Assembly (NCBI GenBank): GCA_019637075.1
Contig: JAHBWI010000002.1
Location: forward strand, 1 to 64,000
Reading direction: 5' to 3'
DNA: 64,000 bases
Origin: Nitrospiraceae bacterium
Lineage (GTDB): Bacteria; Nitrospirota; Nitrospiria; Nitrospirales; Nitrospiraceae
The notes below the pieces were generated by a model, which saw nothing but the letters and a program-made list of their open reading frames with translations, was not told the DNA's origin and did not search any database. How positions within the stretch are numbered: the stretch's first letter is position 1; every line of letters begins with the position of its first letter. Positions 12,011-63,883 of the stretch are shown here, piece by piece. A program made the translations under genes and the position numbers.

Positions 12011-12051
12011 TCCGCTCACCGGACTCCGTCCTTCCAACGCCTACCCGATGA

Positions 12052-14115
12052 ATGCTACAGTGCCCGTATATGGGCACGCTTTCCGTTCCCAGGGACCACT
12101 CGAACCTCCTCAGTGCCTTGCTACGGGCAAGAACGTTGCGGGAGTTCGACCAGCGTCTCCAGCACGACCTGGCCCCAGCCTTGGGCTGCGACCTGATCGG
12201 CTTCTACCTCTATAGCCGCACAACCGGAGTCTTCACTCCGATCTCTGAATCCCTGCGCAGACCGGAATCTCCCGCCTATGTCATGGCCCAACTGCCCTCG
12301 GAAGGTACGCTCAAGGAGGCGGCCGTCCGTGGACACCGGGCGCTGCTGGTGGACGACGTGGCCCAATCGCCCTGGACCGAAGCAGGGGCCCTCGCGCCAA
12401 ACCTGGGCCGGGCGACTTCGGTGATGGTCACACCAGTCACTGCCGTTCCGTCTCGCGACAGGGGCGGAGAAAGTAGGACCTTGGCCGTCTTAGCCGCTGT
12501 CGCCATCGGAAAGCCGGGCTTCTTTTCCGAGGACGACCGCATCATGTTCGAGCAGTTCGGCCTGCACCTTGCTCCCGTCCTCGAGGCGGTGCTGGCCGCC
12601 GAGGAGCGCGACGCACTAGTCGCCATCAACAGCCAGGTCGTACTCGGCACGATGACGATCGACAACCTGCTGCCGGCCGTTCAGCCGATCCTCCGTCAGG
12701 TCATCCACCACGACATGACCGGACTCGTGCGGTTCGTCGGCTCGCCCGACAACCCATGGTTCGACATCGTCTCCTGCGACGGCGTCTCGGTTGATCTGGA
12801 GGCCTTGCGGCGATTTCCCTTCCACCACATGGCACCGGCCGAGCTGCTGGCGACCGGGAAACCGGTGCTGCTGACTGGATACAATCAAGATCGATTCGCA
12901 GAGCACGGGTACTTCGAGTCCATCGGAGTGCTGTCTGCCATGCTCTGTCCCCTGCTCGTGAGCGGCAAGCCCTATGGATTTCTCGCCCTCGGCAGCAAGA
13001 GACGAAACGCCTTTTCCGAACGGGATCTCGGTCTAGCCGAGCAGATCGCCTTTCATCTCTCACACGCCCTCTCGAATTTAACGGCCTACGACGAGATCCG
13101 CCGACTCAAGGAGCGGTTGGAGGAAGAAAACGTCTACCTGCGTGAAGAAATGGGCGCGGTATTGGACCTCAAGACCCTGATCGGTGATAGCCCGACGTTT
13201 CAGCGATCACTCAAGGCCATCGAAAAGGTGGCCCCGACTGACTCCACCGTACTCATCACCGGCGAGACCGGGACGGGAAAGGAGTTGGTGGCCCAGGCGA
13301 TTCACCGCCTGTCCGGACGCCGTCACAAGCCGATCGTAGCGGTCAATTGCGCGGCCCTTCCGCCGACACTCATCGAATCGGAACTGTTCGGACATGAGCG
13401 TGGCGCCTTCACTGGAGCAACCACCCGCAAGCTCGGCCGGTTCGAATTGGCCCATACCGGCACGATTTTCTTGGATGAAGTGGGGGACCTCCCATTGGAC
13501 CTGCAAGCCAAGTTGCTGCGGGTGTTGGAAACACAGGAGTTCGATCGAGTGGGGGGACGAACCGTCCGCGTCGACGCTCGCGTGTTGGCCGCGACAAACG
13601 CCAACCTCGACCAGGCCGTCAAGCAGGGCACATTTCGCGCGGACCTTTTCTACCGCCTGAATGTATTTCCATTGCGGCTGCCCCCCTTGCGCGAACGGCG
13701 AGAGGACATTCCTCTCCTGGCCCGGCACTTCGTCACGAAATACGCCACGCAACACCGCAAAACGGTCACGCGGATCGACAGGACCATGATGCAGCGGCTG
13801 ATCGCCTACGACTGGCCCGGCAACGTGCGGGAATTGGAGCACGTCATCGAACGGGCTGTGATCCTAAGCCAAGGGCCCATCCTGACTCCCGCCGAACTCG
13901 ACGGCTTGGGCACGCAAGAGGAACCGGCTGACGCTCCTCGCCTCGTCACGATGACGGATGTCGAGCGCACCCATATTCTGAATACGCTGGAACAGACCAA
14001 CTGGGTGCTGTCCGGGACAGGAGGCGCAGCGGCTCGGCTCGGTATGAAACGGTCCACCCTGCAGCACCGGATAAAACGGCTGGGCATCCATCGCCCTCCG
14101 CGGACAGCCTCCTAG
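12052..14115 (+). CDS. GAF-domain sigma-54 activator (FhlA/NorR-like)
   Basis: 687-aa enhancer-binding protein without a receiver domain. Two GAF-like sensory domains (about 15-180 and 195-345) precede an AAA+ domain with Walker A GETGTGKE (about 401), an intact GAFTGA loop (about 450-455) and Walker B-type FLDEVGDL. A Fis-type helix-turn-helix (MKRSTLQHRIKRLGI) is near the C terminus. The GAF domains suggest activation by a small ligand or redox signal rather than by phosphorylation. An in-frame ATG at 12070 is an equally plausible start. An 18-bp palindrome overlaps the start region, and related palindromes plus a sigma-54 promoter precede the exporter operon, its likely target. Confidence 0.9.
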   Translation: MLQCPYMGTLSVPRDHSNLLSALLRARTLREFDQRLQHDLAPALGCDLIGFYLYSRTTGVFTPISESLRRPESPAYVMAQLPSEGTLKEAAVRGHRALLVDDVAQSPWTEAGALAPNLGRATSVMVTPVTAVPSRDRGGESRTLAVLAAVAIGKPGFFSEDDRIMFEQFGLHLAPVLEAVLAAEERDALVAINSQVVLGTMTIDNLLPAVQPILRQVIHHDMTGLVRFVGSPDNPWFDIVSCDGVSVDLEALRRFPFHHMAPAELLATGKPVLLTGYNQDRFAEHGYFESIGVLSAMLCPLLVSGKPYGFLALGSKRRNAFSERDLGLAEQIAFHLSHALSNLTAYDEIRRLKERLEEENVYLREEMGAVLDLKTLIGDSPTFQRSLKAIEKVAPTDSTVLITGETGTGKELVAQAIHRLSGRRHKPIVAVNCAALPPTLIESELFGHERGAFTGATTRKLGRFELAHTGTIFLDEVGDLPLDLQAKLLRVLETQEFDRVGGRTVRVDARVLAATNANLDQAVKQGTFRADLFYRLNVFPLRLPPLRERREDIPLLARHFVTKYATQHRKTVTRIDRTMMQRLIAYDWPGNVRELEHVIERAVILSQGPILTPAELDGLGTQEEPADAPRLVTMTDVERTHILNTLEQTNWVLSGTGGAAARLGMKRSTLQHRIKRLGIHRPPRTAS
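12060..12077. promoter_or_regulatory. 18-bp palindromic operator over the activator's start
   Basis: GTGCCCGTATATGGGCAC is palindromic except for one base pair. It covers the region between the two possible start codons (12052, 12070) of the sigma-54 activator. It shares TGCCC-(A/G)TATAT-GGGCA with the palindrome at 14984-15001. Its position suggests autoregulation, by blocking transcription or translation initiation; this is inference. Confidence 0.6.
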
Positions 14116-14211
14116 CCGAATAGTGAACACGTTCGGCCCGTTGTTGCAGGGAACGCCTGGCGCGACAGCGGGATGATTGGCACCGATCGCAAAAAACACG
14201 GAGCACAAGGC

Positions 14212-14967
14212 ATGAGCAACCTTCTCCCACAAATTCTGGCCTTCATGGGATTACTCCTCTGGATGGGTCCCGAGTACGCCCTCGCAGAGCTTGTCGCTTC
14301 TCCGCAGCCGGCGGCCGACTTCGAGAGCGGCGTCTCAGGATCAGCGGAGAGGGGACAGCGTACGCATGTGCCGCGCAGCTCACCACCGGCGGCGATGCAC
14401 ACGGCACCAAGCGCGCCCGATGGTGCTGTGCTGCTTGCAGCGGTGGATGGCTTGGAAGGGCCGCCTCCCTGCAGCAAGGACAATATCTGCAATCTAGCTG
14501 TCTGCGCCAACGACCCTGACTGCCCCGCCGGAATGCCGGACGCAGCGACGAATGATCCTTCGAGCGGCGGGCCGGAACATAACGAAGGAGGCATGGGAAC
14601 GTCTGTCTGGTTCAGCACCGGTCCTCCCTATACAGAAGGCGGCGCACATGTCTGCCACGATAACGGAACCTGCGACATTATGGTCTACTGGACGGTCCAG
14701 CCTGATCGATACGACAAGTGGAAAATCTGCTGGAAGGAACACGGCACCCTGTTCGAGAACGCCTGCGATGACAACGAAAAGATCCGCACCTTCGAAAACG
14801 CCTTCTATCTCATCCCCAAGCTGAAGCAAGGCGAGGAATATCGTATTCGTCTGGAAGGCCGAAAGGACAAGAATGACAAGTGGAAATGCTTGGCGAAAGC
14901 CACGTTGAGGAACATCAGCTGGAATGATCCGCGGATCGTCGGTACCGTTCCTTGTATCGTGCCGTAA
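14212..14967 (+). CDS. Secreted Cys-rich protein of unknown function
   Basis: 251-aa exported protein: signal peptide MSNLLPQILAFMG... with a cleavage site near ALA (about 26), then a low-complexity Ala/Ser/Pro linker to about residue 90, then a cysteine-rich part (CSKDNICNLAVC, DPDC, HVCHDNGTCD, KICWKEH, ENACDD, KWKCLAK). About ten cysteines suggest disulfides in the periplasm or outside. The last about 110 residues look like a fibronectin/Ig-type beta-sandwich. ATG at 14212 has GGAG 8 nt upstream. It lies between the sigma-54 activator and the exporter operon on the same strand, so it may belong to the system. No family recognised. Confidence 0.65.
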   Translation: MSNLLPQILAFMGLLLWMGPEYALAELVASPQPAADFESGVSGSAERGQRTHVPRSSPPAAMHTAPSAPDGAVLLAAVDGLEGPPPCSKDNICNLAVCANDPDCPAGMPDAATNDPSSGGPEHNEGGMGTSVWFSTGPPYTEGGAHVCHDNGTCDIMVYWTVQPDRYDKWKICWKEHGTLFENACDDNEKIRTFENAFYLIPKLKQGEEYRIRLEGRKDKNDKWKCLAKATLRNISWNDPRIVGTVPCIVP

Positions 14968-14983: not shown

Positions 14984-15001
14984 CTGCCCATATATGGGCA
15001 G
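14984..15001. promoter_or_regulatory. Perfect 18-bp palindrome, candidate upstream activating site
   Basis: CTGCCCATATATGGGCAG is perfectly self-complementary. It lies about 130-145 bp upstream of a GG-N10-GC promoter, the usual enhancer distance for sigma-54 activators, and matches the palindrome over the start of the adjacent activator gene. Confidence 0.65.
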
Positions 15002-15014
15002 CGCCCACGCGATT

Positions 15015-15032
15015 CTGCCGGCCGACGGGCAG
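15015..15032. promoter_or_regulatory. Second, degenerate 18-bp half-site pair
   Basis: CTGCC-N8-GGCAG has the same arms and total length as the perfect palindrome 31 bp upstream (three helical turns), with a different core. Both copies are followed by GCGCCCA, so the direct repeat GGGCAGCGCCCA recurs at 14996 and 15027. Tandem helically phased sites are typical of enhancer-binding proteins. Confidence 0.5.
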
Positions 15033-15127
15033 CGCCCAAACGACTCTTTCGACTCGCTCACGTCGCCCCCTGTCATTTCCTGCCACGCGTCAACTACTTA
15101 TGCTCGAAGCCCGGGCCATACTCCTCC

Positions 15128-15143
15128 TGGCATCCTCCCTGCT
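15128..15143 (+). promoter_or_regulatory. Sigma-54 (-24/-12) promoter of exporter operon
   Basis: TGGCATCCTCCCTGCT matches the sigma-54 consensus TGGCACG-N4-TTGC at the invariant GG and GC with the required 10-bp spacing. Transcription would start about 12 bp after the GC, at about 15154, almost on the ATG at 15156. Either the first gene is translated from a nearly leaderless mRNA or it begins at a later codon. Confidence 0.55.
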
Positions 15144-15155
15144 TCTCGCTTCCCC

Positions 15156-15563
15156 ATGAACCGCAGCAACCCAACGCCGGATTGGATCAGCCATGAAATT
15201 CGTTCGTACCTGACGGCGCGTGAGAACGAACTGTTGCCTTCGGGTGAAGGCACCAAGGACGGCCGGCGATTCGGTTGGTGCGGCGACGTATTCGACTTTC
15301 TGTGCGAAGGACTGGCTGAACGGCTGGCAGGACACAACATCACATTTGCGGCCGCCTTTCCCGGCCCCTTCCGTTTGCTCGACGAGGACCAGCAACCGAA
15401 CGGCCAGCACATTCGCCGTTTCTGGACGACTGCCCTGCACCAAGGCTGTCCGATCGCGCGTCTGTGCACGTACTTTTTCCATCGGCACGATCAGGTGAGA
15501 CTGCCTCGCCGTCCCCAAGTCGTTGCCTACCCGGCGGACAGCCGACTCTTGGAGATCGAGTGA
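15156..15563 (+). CDS. Unknown 135-aa first protein of the exporter operon
   Basis: Soluble protein of about 135 residues without a signal peptide or TM segment, rich in aromatic, His and Arg residues, with Cys at CGDVFDFLC, HQGC and ARLC. No family recognised. Support for coding: its TGA (15561-15563) overlaps the GTG start of the permease by 4 bp, the same coupling used at the next junctions, and a sigma-54 promoter lies directly upstream. It could be a cytoplasmic adaptor or chaperone for the exported substrate; this is speculation. The exact start is uncertain. Confidence 0.55.
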   Translation: MNRSNPTPDWISHEIRSYLTARENELLPSGEGTKDGRRFGWCGDVFDFLCEGLAERLAGHNITFAAAFPGPFRLLDEDQQPNGQHIRRFWTTALHQGCPIARLCTYFFHRHDQVRLPRRPQVVAYPADSRLLEIE

Positions 15564-16690
15564 ACTACGTCGCCCTCAAGATGCTGTTTGGCGACCGCGC
15601 CAAATATCTGATGCTCCTCTGCGGGCTCACGTTCGCAGTCATGCTCATCGTGCAGCAGGGGTCCATTTTTTGGGGACTGATGATCTGGTCCCAATCCAGC
15701 GTGACCAACACCAATGTGCCGATCTGGGTAACGGACCCTGGCATCGCTCAGGTCGACGAAGTCAAACCCATCGCCGACACAGCGGTGGATCGTGTCCGGA
15801 GCGTGCCGGGGGTCGAGTGGGCCGTGCCGCACTATCGGGGCCTCCTTCGCGCACGGTTGGCAAGCGGGGCCTACCATCAAATCACTCTCGTCGGCCTGGA
15901 ATCGGCCACGTTGATCGGCCGCCCCTCGCAGGTGCTGGACGGACGATTCGAGGACGTAAGGCAACCGGATGCCGTGGTCGTCGATCAGTGGACCGTGGAA
16001 CGCATGGGGGGCCCTGACGTCATCAAGGTCGGCAGCCTGTTCGAATTAAACGACAAGCTCGCACGCGTGGTGGCCATCGCCAAGACCCAAAAGAGCTTCA
16101 CCAACATTCCCGTCGTCTACACGACCTATGAACGCGCTCTTCGTTATGTGCCGCGTGAACGGAGAACCCTATCCTATGTACTGGCCAAGGCGCGGGAGGG
16201 AGAACCGGTGGAGGGAGTCATCGCGCGCATCCGCGACAGCACAGGATTAGGCGCCTACACCGGGGAGGAGTTCGGCTGGAAAACCATCGGGTGGGTCCTG
16301 AACAATACCGGGATCGGCATCAACTTCGGGACGACCATCGTGCTCGGATTCATCGTCGGCATGGCGATCGCCGGGCAAACGTTTTACCTCTTCACAGTGG
16401 AAAATCTTCGGCAGTTCGGCGCGCTCAAGGCCATGGGGACCTCGACGGCCACGCTGGCCCGCATGATTCTCCTGCAAGCCTTGACGGTCGGCATTACCGG
16501 CTATGGCCTGGGGGTAGGACTCGCCACGGCTTTCGGTCTGTTCGCCGCACGAGAGGGCCAACTCCCCTTCAATGAAACCTGGCCTCTGCTCGCCCTGGTG
16601 TTCGTGGCGCTGTTGGCCATCTGTATGTTTTCAGCTTTGATCAGCATTATCAAATTGGCCCGGCTGGAACCGGCCATCGTCTTTCGGTGA
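15560..16690 (+). CDS. devC: ABC exporter permease, DevC/MacB type
   Basis: 376-aa inner-membrane permease with the FtsX/MacB topology: one N-terminal TM helix (LMLLCGLTFAVMLIVQQG), a periplasmic domain of about 220 residues, then three C-terminal TM helices (about 255-370) that include ENLRQFGALKAMGTS, the coupling segment next to the FtsX-type helices. This corresponds to DevC of the cyanobacterial DevBCA glycolipid exporter. GTG at 15560 is chosen because it forms a GTGA overlap with the upstream stop and gives the family's N terminus (NYVALKMLFGD). Its ATPase, fusion protein and outer-membrane factor follow immediately. Confidence 0.85.
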   Translation: MNYVALKMLFGDRAKYLMLLCGLTFAVMLIVQQGSIFWGLMIWSQSSVTNTNVPIWVTDPGIAQVDEVKPIADTAVDRVRSVPGVEWAVPHYRGLLRARLASGAYHQITLVGLESATLIGRPSQVLDGRFEDVRQPDAVVVDQWTVERMGGPDVIKVGSLFELNDKLARVVAIAKTQKSFTNIPVVYTTYERALRYVPRERRTLSYVLAKAREGEPVEGVIARIRDSTGLGAYTGEEFGWKTIGWVLNNTGIGINFGTTIVLGFIVGMAIAGQTFYLFTVENLRQFGALKAMGTSTATLARMILLQALTVGITGYGLGVGLATAFGLFAAREGQLPFNETWPLLALVFVALLAICMFSALISIIKLARLEPAIVFR

Positions 16691-17448
16691 TCGGCATGGC
16701 ACTACACACCCAACCAGCGGCCGTCGAGCTACCGCCGCCGTCCGAGACCATGGCGGTTCGAGTACGCGGTATGGTCAAGTCGTTCGGCACAGGCGACACG
16801 GCGGTGACGGTACTCAAAGGCATCGATCTCGATGTGTATTTCGGCGAGTTGCTCCTCCTGGTGGGAGAATCGGGCGGCGGAAAAACCACGCTGCTGTCGG
16901 CCATCGCCGGCATTTTGGACTTCGACGCAGGTGAACTGACCGTCCTGGGAACCCCGCTCGCCTCGATGTCCGCCGGTCGGCGGACCCGCTTTCGCAGCCA
17001 GACAATGGGGTTCATCTTTCAGCAGTTCAACCTGCTACCGGCCCTCACGGCGGCGGAGAATGTGGCGGTGCCGCTGCTCATTCAAGGACTCGCGCAACGT
17101 CAGGCGATTGCCCGCGCCCGCACGATGCTCGAGCGAGTGGGTCTGGGGGATCGCACCGAGTTTCTCCCTCGAAACCTCTCGGGCGGCCAACAACAGCGAG
17201 TCGCCATCGCCCGCGCGCTGGTCACGGAACCCAAGCTCCTCGTCTGCGACGAGCCGACGGCGGCGCTCGACGGCCCCAACGGGCAAAAGATCATGGAGAT
17301 CATCCGCGAAGTCGGCCGGGCGCCGGATCGTTGCGTCATCGTCGTCACCCATGACAGTCGCGTGTTTCATTTCGGTGACCGCATGGCCGAGCTGACTGAC
17401 GGCCGCATCGTGGGTGTCCATCCGATCTCGAAGGAGGCGTCGACATGA
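16687..17448 (+). CDS. devA: ABC exporter ATPase, DevA/LolD type
   Basis: 253-aa nucleotide-binding subunit. Walker A GESGGGKTT, Q-loop in FIFQQFNLLPALTA, signature LSGGQQQRVAIARAL, Walker B LLVCDEPT and the H-loop in VVTHDSRVF are all intact. It belongs to the MacB/LolD/DevA group that works with FtsX-type permeases. A GTG at 16687 overlaps the permease stop by 4 bp; an ATG at 16696 is the alternative. Its stop overlaps the next gene's ATG. Confidence 0.88.
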   Translation: MIGMALHTQPAAVELPPPSETMAVRVRGMVKSFGTGDTAVTVLKGIDLDVYFGELLLLVGESGGGKTTLLSAIAGILDFDAGELTVLGTPLASMSAGRRTRFRSQTMGFIFQQFNLLPALTAAENVAVPLLIQGLAQRQAIARARTMLERVGLGDRTEFLPRNLSGGQQQRVAIARALVTEPKLLVCDEPTAALDGPNGQKIMEIIREVGRAPDRCVIVVTHDSRVFHFGDRMAELTDGRIVGVHPISKEAST

Positions 17449-18443
17449 TTGTGCTCAAACGAGTCAGCGTCTGGGTGGCAGTCGCCGGCTTGGTGCTTGC
17501 CGGATGGACCCTGCTGAACGCGGGGAAAAAGGAGCCGATGCCGACTCCGCTCGTGGAACCCCCCAAATCGCCCTATGCCACGACGGTCGCAGCGACCGGC
17601 ATCATCGAGGCGGTCAACGAAAATGTCCGCATCGGGCCGCCGCTCCCCGGCCTCGTCGCCAAGGTCTTCGTCGCAGTCGGCGACCGCGTGCGCGAGGGTG
17701 CACCGCTCTTGCAGCTGGACGACCGCGACTTGCGGGCGCAGTTGGTCTCACGCGAGGCGGCCATTCCACCGGCGCAGGCCCAAGTCGAGGAGCAACACTA
17801 CCGCATCGGCGACCTGGAAACGCAACTTAAACGACTCAGGGCCATTCATGACAACCGCGCAGTGAGCGACGACGATGTGAAGCGCACATGGTATGCGTTG
17901 GAAATGGCCAAGCGGGCCGCCGTGCGACTCGACGCCACGTTGAAGCAGGTCACGGCGCAACGGGATGAAACCCAACTGCTGGTCGAACGGCTGACCATCC
18001 GGGCACCACGCGCTGGCACGGTGCTACAGGTCAATATCCGTGCCGGTGAGTACGCCTTGACGACCGGAGCGACCGAACCGCTCATGCTGCTCGGGGAGAC
18101 CGATCAGCTCCAAGTTCGCGCCGATGTCGATGAAGTGAACGCACCGTTGGTTTCCCCTCGTGCTCCGGGGGTCGCATACCTCAAAGGCAACACCACCCAG
18201 CCGATCGCGCTCGAGTTCGTCCGCATCGAGCCTTATATCGTGCCGAAGAAGTCACTGACCGGCGACAACAGCGAGCGGGTCGACACGCGCGTGTTACAGG
18301 TGATCTACAAATTTCAGCACCCCCCGTTCCCTGTCTATGCGGGCCAGCAGGTGGATGTCTTCCTCAACCGCAGCGATTCGCCCGGCCAACCCCACACCCT
18401 AGCCCCTGGGGCGGACTCGTCGAAGGAGGCTGGGAAGCGCTGA
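17445..18443 (+). CDS. devB: Membrane fusion protein, HlyD/DevB type
   Basis: 332-aa periplasmic adaptor linking the ABC permease to the outer-membrane factor. An N-terminal membrane anchor (VWVAVAGLVLAGWTLL) is followed by a biotinyl-lipoyl-like half motif (GPPLPGLVAKVFVAVGDRV), a coiled-coil hairpin (about 105-185), the second lipoyl half (IRAPRAGTVLQVNIRAGE) and a beta-barrel region. The ATG overlaps the ATPase stop by 4 bp (ATGA) and its own TGA overlaps the next ATG by 1 bp, so translation of the set is coupled. Confidence 0.88.
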   Translation: MIVLKRVSVWVAVAGLVLAGWTLLNAGKKEPMPTPLVEPPKSPYATTVAATGIIEAVNENVRIGPPLPGLVAKVFVAVGDRVREGAPLLQLDDRDLRAQLVSREAAIPPAQAQVEEQHYRIGDLETQLKRLRAIHDNRAVSDDDVKRTWYALEMAKRAAVRLDATLKQVTAQRDETQLLVERLTIRAPRAGTVLQVNIRAGEYALTTGATEPLMLLGETDQLQVRADVDEVNAPLVSPRAPGVAYLKGNTTQPIALEFVRIEPYIVPKKSLTGDNSERVDTRVLQVIYKFQHPPFPVYAGQQVDVFLNRSDSPGQPHTLAPGADSSKEAGKR

Positions 18444-19948
18444 TGCGGCTGCACCAAGCGTGGGAATCGTTGTTGGTCTTGTTCCTGTGCGCAGTCGGAT
18501 CCCTCACGACAGGCTGTCTGCAGGGGTCCGAGTATCGTCGCCCGGCGGTCGACACACCGGCCGACTGGAGCCGGATGGCGCAAGGCTCGCCCATGGCCTC
18601 CGACGGAAGTCTGGAGCCGGAAGCCCAATGGTGGCGGGCCTTCCGCAACGAGGAACTGACCGGGTTCATCGAACAGGCGCTGGCGAGCAATCATGACGTG
18701 CGGCGAGCCGTCTCGCGGTTGGTCGAAGGACGGGCCTCGGTGACCACGGCCGGAGCCGGGCTCTATCCTCAGATCAACGTCCAGGGAAGCTACACCAACA
18801 TCTCCATCTCGAAAAACACCTTGGCCGGCCTCGGGTTGGCTACAGGGAAACAACCGGGGCCGCAAACGTTCGCCGCGCCTGGTTCCGGTTTCGACCTCTG
18901 GAACGGAGCGGCAGACTTGAGGTGGGAGCTGGATGTCTGGGGACGGATCAGACGCGGAATGGAAGCGGCGGAGGCCGATGCCCATGCGATTGAGCAGGAC
19001 GCCCGTGCAATCGCGTTGACGCTCATCGGCGACGTAGGGCAGGCCTACTTCCGCGTCCGGGAGTTGGACGAGCAACTCGACATTGCCCAACGCACGCTGA
19101 CGCTCAGACGCGAATCGCTGGACATCATCACGAAACGGGCCTCGGTCGGGCTGGCCTCCGATCTGGATGTCAAACGCACCGAAGTGTTGGTCGCCGAAAG
19201 TGCCGGCCAGGTTCCGGAACTGACGCGTCTCCGCACGATCGAGCTTCATCGGCTGGAAGTCCTGACGGGCTCAGCCCCCGGGGCGCTTACGTTGGAGCCG
19301 AAACCCCTGCGGCAGTTGATCGTGCAGCCGATCATCCCCATCGGCCTGCCGTCCCAGTTGCTGGAACGCCGGCCCGATATCCTGCAGGCGGAGGCTACGC
19401 TCATCGCCGCCAATGCCAGAATCGGTCAGGCCCGCGCGTACTTTTTTCCGTCATTGTCCATCACAGGGCAGGGGGGGCTGCAGAGCGCGGAATTCGCCAA
19501 CTGGTTTACCGGCCACAGCGCCAACTACAGCATCGGCCCATCCGTCACCCTGCCGATTTTCCTCGGCGGGACGAACGTGGCTCGATTGGATGCTGCCGAA
19601 TCGCACTATCAACAGATGCTGGAGTCCTATCAGCAGACCATCTTGCTCGCGTTTCGTGAAGTGGCGGATTTGTTGGTGTCGATCCATCTCCGGGGCGACC
19701 AACTCGCCCGCCAACGCGAACAGGTTGCCGCAGCAAAGGCAGCCTGGTCCTTGGCCGACGTCCGCTACCGCAAGGGCCTGGTCAATTACCTCGATGTCCT
19801 GGACGCGCAACGTACGACCCTGGCCGCCGAAACCCAACTCGTCCAGACCGAGCGAGCCCGATTGATCGATATGGTGACCCTCTACAAGGCACTCGGTGGA
19901 GGATGGGTCCCTCAGGAGGCGGCTTCAGCCGGACGAAAACAGCCGTAA
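18443..19948 (+). CDS. TolC/NodT-family outer-membrane factor lipoprotein
   Basis: 501-aa outer-membrane channel with a signal peptide and lipobox (LTTGC, Cys about 25). It shows the NodT-type duplicated structure: WWRAFRNEELTGFIEQALASN at the start of repeat 1, GAADLRWELDVWGR, LLERRPDILQAEATL at the start of repeat 2, then GPSVTLPIFLGG and VRYRKGLVNYLDVLDAQRT. It completes a tripartite trans-envelope exporter with the three preceding genes. No strong terminator follows. Confidence 0.9.
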   Translation: MRLHQAWESLLVLFLCAVGSLTTGCLQGSEYRRPAVDTPADWSRMAQGSPMASDGSLEPEAQWWRAFRNEELTGFIEQALASNHDVRRAVSRLVEGRASVTTAGAGLYPQINVQGSYTNISISKNTLAGLGLATGKQPGPQTFAAPGSGFDLWNGAADLRWELDVWGRIRRGMEAAEADAHAIEQDARAIALTLIGDVGQAYFRVRELDEQLDIAQRTLTLRRESLDIITKRASVGLASDLDVKRTEVLVAESAGQVPELTRLRTIELHRLEVLTGSAPGALTLEPKPLRQLIVQPIIPIGLPSQLLERRPDILQAEATLIAANARIGQARAYFFPSLSITGQGGLQSAEFANWFTGHSANYSIGPSVTLPIFLGGTNVARLDAAESHYQQMLESYQQTILLAFREVADLLVSIHLRGDQLARQREQVAAAKAAWSLADVRYRKGLVNYLDVLDAQRTTLAAETQLVQTERARLIDMVTLYKALGGGWVPQEAASAGRKQP

Positions 19949-63127: not shown

Positions 63128-63883
63128 ATGATCAAGTCCCCCCAGCGATCTTCGGTCCCCTTCCTCGGTTTCGCGCTTGCGTCGCTGTTTGTCGGCTGCC
63201 AGCCCGACGAAAGTCCCTTTCGGCAGGAAAACGATCAGCTCCGCAAACAATTGAACAAACAAGAATCCGTCCTCTCCTCCCTCCAGGACGGCAACAAAGT
63301 CATGCAGCAGCAGATCGATCTGCTGAATCAAGAACTGCGTGACGCCAAAAAGCAAGCGGAGAAGGCACTGGCGGACGCGAAAGCTTTTCAAACGGAATCC
63401 AAAACCCTCGGCACGAAGCTCGAATCACAGCTCGCGGAGACCAAAAAACTCTCCGCAGAAGTGCAGCGCACCGCCGCCAAGGCGGCACAGGCCACCGAGA
63501 GCCTGAAAGTGGAAGAGAAAGGCGCCCAAGCCGAGGATCTTCCACGTGCACTCGCCGTGGTGAGCAAAGCCGCTGAAGAAGCGCTTGCCCGAAACGGCTA
63601 CCAGGTGAAGGTCGGTCTCAAAACAGAACAGCGGGCGGTGTTCGTCACCGAGCGCAAGGTCTCCACCCCGGCCTCGCTCGAGATGTCGGGCTTCCGCAAC
63701 CAGTATGTCGTGTCGCTGCAAGCGCTTCCGTCCAACGTGACTCGATTGAGCGTGAAGGCGGATTTCGAAAAGCTCATGCAGGGCGGGCGGGTGCTTGGGG
63801 TCAGCGCGGAAGAGACAGCTGAGATCGAGCGGCGCCTCATCGCGGAAATCGGCAAGGCCGTCTCATCCCCCGGCAAACTGTGA
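63128..63883 (+). CDS. Coiled-coil lipoprotein
   Basis: 251-aa lipoprotein: hydrophobic core SVPFLGFALASLFVGC with lipobox FVGC (Cys about 22), a coiled coil (about 28-115, with heptads such as ENDQLRKQLNKQESVLSSL), and a C-terminal alpha/beta domain (about 135-235). Divergent from the unknown exported protein at 62370. ATG at 63128 is chosen since it gives the signal peptide; no ribosome site is evident. Its TGA overlaps the next gene's GTG by 4 bp. Confidence 0.7.
   Translation: MIKSPQRSSVPFLGFALASLFVGCQPDESPFRQENDQLRKQLNKQESVLSSLQDGNKVMQQQIDLLNQELRDAKKQAEKALADAKAFQTESKTLGTKLESQLAETKKLSAEVQRTAAKAAQATESLKVEEKGAQAEDLPRALAVVSKAAEEALARNGYQVKVGLKTEQRAVFVTERKVSTPASLEMSGFRNQYVVSLQALPSNVTRLSVKADFEKLMQGGRVLGVSAEETAEIERRLIAEIGKAVSSPGKL

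Follow-up and report, generated by a model that had tools for sequence, protein, structure and literature searches.

A predicted self-contained sigma-54 activator cassette with its own operator at an ABC exporter operon in Nitrospiraceae

We analyzed a 64-kb window (the whole stretch of DNA under study, 64,000 nucleotides) from a Nitrospiraceae genome, in which the gene for a sigma-54 activator is followed by a gene for a hypothetical protein, two palindromes, a promoter, and an exporter operon. The locus contains the following genes and features:

12031–12036, + strand: CTTTCC-like block, conserved in 37 aligned loci; possible weak −35 element of the activator promoter
12053–12061, + strand: extended −10-like element TG-N-TANAGT, conserved in 37 loci; putative function
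12061–12076, no strand: third candidate operator, TGCCCGTATATGGGCA, nearly invariant in 37 loci; predicted autorepression site
12070–14115, + strand: GAF-AAA+-Fis sigma-54 activator, from Pfam and NCBIfam matches; start moved from 12052
14984–15001, no strand: candidate operator 1, CTGCCCATATATGGGCAG, from palindrome search and alignment of relatives
15015–15032, no strand: candidate operator 2, CTGCCGGCCGACGGGCAG, from palindrome search and alignment of relatives
15088–15100, + strand: IHF-like site, CGTCAACTACTTA, best match to WATCARNNNNTTR; putative function
15128–15143, + strand: sigma-54 promoter, TGGCATCCTCCCTGCT, with TGGCAY-N6-TGCT kept in 40 loci; predicted +1 at ~15154
15156–15563, + strand: first operon gene, DUF6022-like; its stop overlaps the permease start
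15560–16690, + strand: FtsX/MacB-type ABC permease, DevC-like, from family profile matches
16687–17448, + strand: ABC ATPase, DevA/LolD-like, from family profile matches
17445–18443, + strand: HlyD-type adaptor, DevB-like, from family profile matches
18443–19948, + strand: NodT-type outer-membrane channel, above the NCBIfam NodT cut-off

Like DevBCA systems with an outer-membrane channel, the operon combines a permease, an ATPase, an HlyD-type adaptor, and a channel, and the description of the operon as DevBCA-type in the initial annotation holds for this layout. The label does not extend to family membership, with the NCBIfam models DevA (219, cut-off 295.8), DevB (46.9, cut-off 129), and DevC (57.6, cut-off 290.35) all scoring below cut-off. 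The operon further differs from DevBCA in beginning with a DUF6022-like gene and in being apparently under the control of a sigma-54 activator. The gene between activator and operators (14173–14967) encodes a hypothetical 264-amino-acid protein with no family match; an 86% identical piece occurs in locus L091 only, and in most other loci the operators directly follow the activator stop codon.

The activator carries an AAA+ sigma-54 interaction domain (PF00158, 234 bits) with the Walker A motif GETGTGKE, a Fis-type helix-turn-helix (HTH; PF02954), and a GAF sensor region (PF13185, PF01590), which together with its GAFTGA loop are the domains and motifs of GAF-group sigma-54 enhancer-binding proteins. 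The protein scores below the cut-offs of the named equivalogs FhlA (412.6 bits, cut-off 830), NifA (373.4 bits, cut-off 528.85), and NorR (372.3 bits, cut-off 476), and below that of every other named NCBIfam equivalog shown. We therefore assign the activator provisionally to an unnamed ortholog group that would have its own operator and work in the manner of NtrC or NorR. The genome encodes a single copy of sigma-54 and holds 33 matches to the sigma-54 domain of the activator in about thirty stretches. Three more distant loci (L222, L223, and L224) encode relatives of the activator that are 46–48% identical, carry a GAFTHA loop, come from organisms in another family of the class, and adjoin an outer-membrane efflux gene; these loci contain neither TGCC-N8-GGCA sites nor another clear common palindrome.

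The exact pattern CTGCC-N8-GGCAG has two matches in the 64-kb window, at operators 1 and 2, which share these arms and lie 31 bp apart from start to start, as the initial annotation had described. Chance alone is expected to yield ~1.4 perfect 16-bp palindromes and 0.36 perfect 18-mers per 64 kb, and because of the former number the pair by itself is weak evidence. A further perfect 18-bp palindrome, CAGCAGATCGATCTGCTG, lies at 63308–63325. Genome-wide, the bare pattern TGCCC-N6-GGGCA is at background, with 10 matches versus 10 for a reversed-pattern control; two of the 10 genomic matches have RTATAT as their common core and are separated by 3 kb, one being the palindrome at 12061–12076. The fuller motif TGCCNRYATRYSGGCA has two sites in the 4.06-Mb genome, both within this locus, versus none for the reversed control, and the scan of this genome returned no additional target. 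Among the other activator-bearing genomes, 31 of 32 have one to four sites for TGCCNRYATRYSGGCA, mostly at the same locus, with reversed controls of 0 or 1. Scattered single matches to the motif also occur in the genomes of relatives.

When 147 genomes from the family were searched with the permease, ~55 orthologs were recovered, mostly at 76–87% identity, and ~12 kb around most of them was compared with all loci oriented alike; those relatives that bear a name belong to Nitrospira, among them Candidatus Nitrospira defluvii (FP929003.1, L135). All 39 Nitrospiraceae loci that have an activator gene nearby contain the two palindromes together with the sigma-54 promoter, 13 loci contain neither activator nor palindromes, and none of the loci compared has an activator without palindromes. 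In two loci palindromes occur although no intact activator adjoins them: L088, in which the gene has an internal deletion, and L117, in which the activator lies ~6 kb upstream. The initial annotation had made its proposal depend on conservation of the palindromes upstream of the orthologous operon, and they are conserved there in every locus with a nearby activator, and both they and the promoter are absent from loci where the activator never appears.

The geometry of the block is similarly constrained. Start-to-start spacing of the operators is 29–31 bp in 35 anchored loci and 19–20 bp in five, with nothing between, and the five, whose spacing is one helical turn less, cluster together with good support in the permease tree. 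Operator 2 lies 112–117 bp from the promoter in 40 loci; the distance in L074 is 126 bp. These shifts by whole helical turns support same-face binding by interacting dimers, and the pair has the NtrC layout of dyads on one helical face ~100–200 bp before the promoter. Mean information is 1.59 bits for operator 1, 1.39 bits for operator 2, and 1.54 bits for the promoter, versus 0.25–0.33 bits for the unconserved DNA that flanks them. Two loci, L091 and L121, lack the DUF6022-like gene or have a broken copy; there the block sits immediately before the permease with its internal spacing unchanged. From these sequence comparisons, the palindrome pair very probably represents docking sites of the neighboring activator protein.

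The promoter TGGCATCCTCCCTGCT matches the −24/−12 pattern TGGCAY-N5-TTGCW with GG-N10-GC spacing; a GG-N10-GC promoter had been proposed from the window alone, and the element recurs in 39 of 39 activator loci. Upstream of the promoter, the best match to WATCARNNNNTTR begins 40–42 bp away in 29 of 40 loci and is absent or elsewhere in the other 11. This IHF-like site occupies the classical position between enhancer and promoter, and the genome has four genes of the HU/IHF family, each of which may encode IHF or HU. The start codon of a long open reading frame lies 2–5 nt past the predicted sigma-54 start in 37 of 39 loci, usually by exactly 3 nt, and by 2 nt for the first operon gene of the window, so that the operon mRNA would be nearly leaderless.

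The palindromes number more than the two upstream copies first described. The full motif has just two sites in the genome, of which the third copy is one, and this copy overlies both the likely start codon of the activator and a −10-like element that is conserved. Positions T12053, G12054, T12056, A12057, G12060, and T12061 are invariant in 37 aligned loci. The last base of TG-N-TANAGT is the first base of the third operator, and the element is without a mirrored counterpart beyond the palindrome; this unmirrored invariance makes it look like an extended −10 element. The CTTTCC-like block lies ~18–19 bp above, and a general sigma-70 promoter scan found nothing before the activator gene. A −10 element at 12053–12061 predicts transcription from ~12068–12070, at the ATG at 12070 within the palindrome. 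This ATG, rather than 12052, is likely the real start of the activator, because an in-frame stop precedes it in L085 and the triplet just upstream is variable. We infer that the operon and activator transcripts may both be nearly leaderless, a feature that the initial annotation had overlooked together with the third operator and the IHF-like site, and that activator bound at the third site would obstruct the promoter of its own gene.

Eleven genomes (G108, G025, G084, G068, G042, G048, G074, G088, G115, G153, and G133) keep the exporter without the activator. A genome search finds only activator paralogs in them (at most ~440 bits, versus at least ~820 bits for orthologs), and their exporters have neither the operator pair nor such a sigma-54 promoter. 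In most of the activator-less layouts read, an NFACT-like gene lies 142–371 bp from the permease, and elsewhere an NFACT-like gene precedes the activator. Activator, operators, promoter, and first gene appear to have been gained or lost largely as a block, and as this co-loss is mostly a one-block deletion it is evidence for a module, not for binding. The permease tree requires at least four changes of activator state, too few pairs for an independent-pairs test to reach significance (p 0.5). Two loci retain traces of decay. In L088 (genome G143; also L166) the activator is cut internally to two ends, with the start palindrome and an HTH remnant, and the promoter is retained along with the three palindromes, of which one is slightly degraded. 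In L102 (genome G151; also L162) the activator is a short decayed remnant, the operator pair is gone, and the sigma-54 promoter sequence remains. In L076 (genome G123), the activator has an in-frame stop after ~residue 347, reflecting either a broken gene or an assembly error.

The intact GAFTGA loop reported in the initial annotation is present in the window protein but not across the clade. The second glycine of the motif is G in three of 39 orthologs (this genome and two relatives), N in 22, S in 12, H in one, and D in one, such that 36 of 39 carry GAFT[NSHD]A; most of the paralogs read in the same genome carry GAFTGA. This substitution is the most surprising feature of the locus, and falls at the NorR G266 bypass position, where replacement by N or D (G266N, G266D) releases the protein completely from GAF repression without loss of open-complex formation (PMC2941729). 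As the GAFT[NSHD]A orthologs keep promoter and operators, they probably still function as activators, though their gating would be altered; with the glycine replaced in 36 of 39 proteins, normal activator function there is an assumption. We entertain as a doubtful possibility that in most of the clade the circuit, with an operator over the activator start, is signal-independent and set by autorepression, or is otherwise gated, and that the window protein with its GAFTGA loop is the exception.

The conservation, geometry, co-occurrence, and confinement of the motif seen at the locus lead us to a reading that we hold with high confidence for a prediction from DNA: the locus is most likely a self-contained sigma-54 cassette in which the activator drives the operon from the operator pair and represses itself at the third site. 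In the proposed mechanism, the activator would bind TGCCC-N6-GGGCA-type palindromes through its Fis-type helix-turn-helix, and dimers on the tandem sites, whose centers lie ~161 and ~130 bp upstream of the predicted start and face the same side of the helix, would assemble an AAA+ ring. The ring would contact the −24/−12 promoter by DNA looping, probably aided by an IHF-type bend at 15088–15100, and the activated polymerase would then transcribe the DUF6022-permease-ATPase-HlyD-channel operon. By binding to the third site, which overlaps the −10 element and start codon of its own gene, the activator would also limit its own synthesis.

The palindromes could instead be operators of another regulator, either a repressor or an activator, with the adjacent activator using other sites. 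The retention of operators in L088 despite its internally deleted activator fits such a reading, but an operator there is already off consensus, and the pair is missing from L102 with its decayed activator. The operators moreover occur only where this activator is encoded, one of them sits on the start of the activator itself, and they keep the fixed distance to the sigma-54 promoter that enhancers would be expected to have, all of which makes a separate regulator improbable. A role for the palindromes in RNA, as hairpins or transcription terminators where the activator gene ends, could account for the usual position of operator 1 close behind the activator stop codon and for the terminator-like appearance of the third palindrome in a simple scan. 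Terminator-like matches are at the level of shuffled sequence (3 found, mean 3.0), however, no T-run follows operator 1 or 2, and the scan calls neither of them a terminator. The position of the third copy at the beginning of a gene, the spacing steps of helical turns, and the preservation of the AT center and dyad also speak against an RNA function, which we consider highly improbable.

A different reading of the third site alone is that it serves mainly as a distal third enhancer, looping over a long distance to complete the activator ring, and not as a site of autorepression. NorR requires three enhancer sites for ATPase activity (PMC2941729) and only two lie near the promoter here, and the third site is the best conserved of the sites. 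Against this reading, the site lies over a conserved −10-like element and a start codon, the location that repression needs, and its distance to the promoter varies freely with inserted genes, such as the hypothetical gene in the window and ~6 kb in L227. We regard a mainly enhancing role as unlikely and favor autorepression at the third site.

The proposed circuit has counterparts in characterized systems. At Escherichia coli glnAp2, NtrC acts from a tandem pair of palindromic enhancers separated by about three turns of the helix and located roughly 100–160 bp before a −24/−12 promoter, and NtrC also represses promoters overlapped by its sites, including its own sigma-70 promoters. The locus shares with NtrC and glnAp2 tandem palindromes about three turns apart before a −24/−12 promoter and a predicted self-repression; NtrC is a phosphorylated response regulator with the operator TGCACC-N5-GGTGCA, whereas the sensor part here is GAF and the operator TGCCC-N6-GGGCA. 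FhlA, the formate hydrogenlyase activator, is the best NCBIfam match and has a GAF-AAA+-Fis layout and similar length, but the match falls short of the FhlA cut-off, the target is different, and the FhlA operator differs from the one here. NorR, which controls norVW in E. coli, likewise has a GAF-AAA+-Fis layout and several enhancer sites before a sigma-54 promoter, and differs in needing three clustered sites (PMC2941729), in contrast to two near the promoter and one on the activator gene.

The architecture itself is classical, and the operator and activator ortholog group appear to be undescribed; a search of open-access papers on the operator, DUF6022, and leaderless sigma-54 autorepression returned nothing relevant. 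To our knowledge, no Nitrospira activator of this kind has a mapped operator. The analysis provides an uncharacterized Nitrospira activator group with a concrete candidate operator and a single target operon, and the natural series of operator spacings at two and three helical turns, together with the GAFTGA variants, may be used to probe the gating of GAF-controlled activators.
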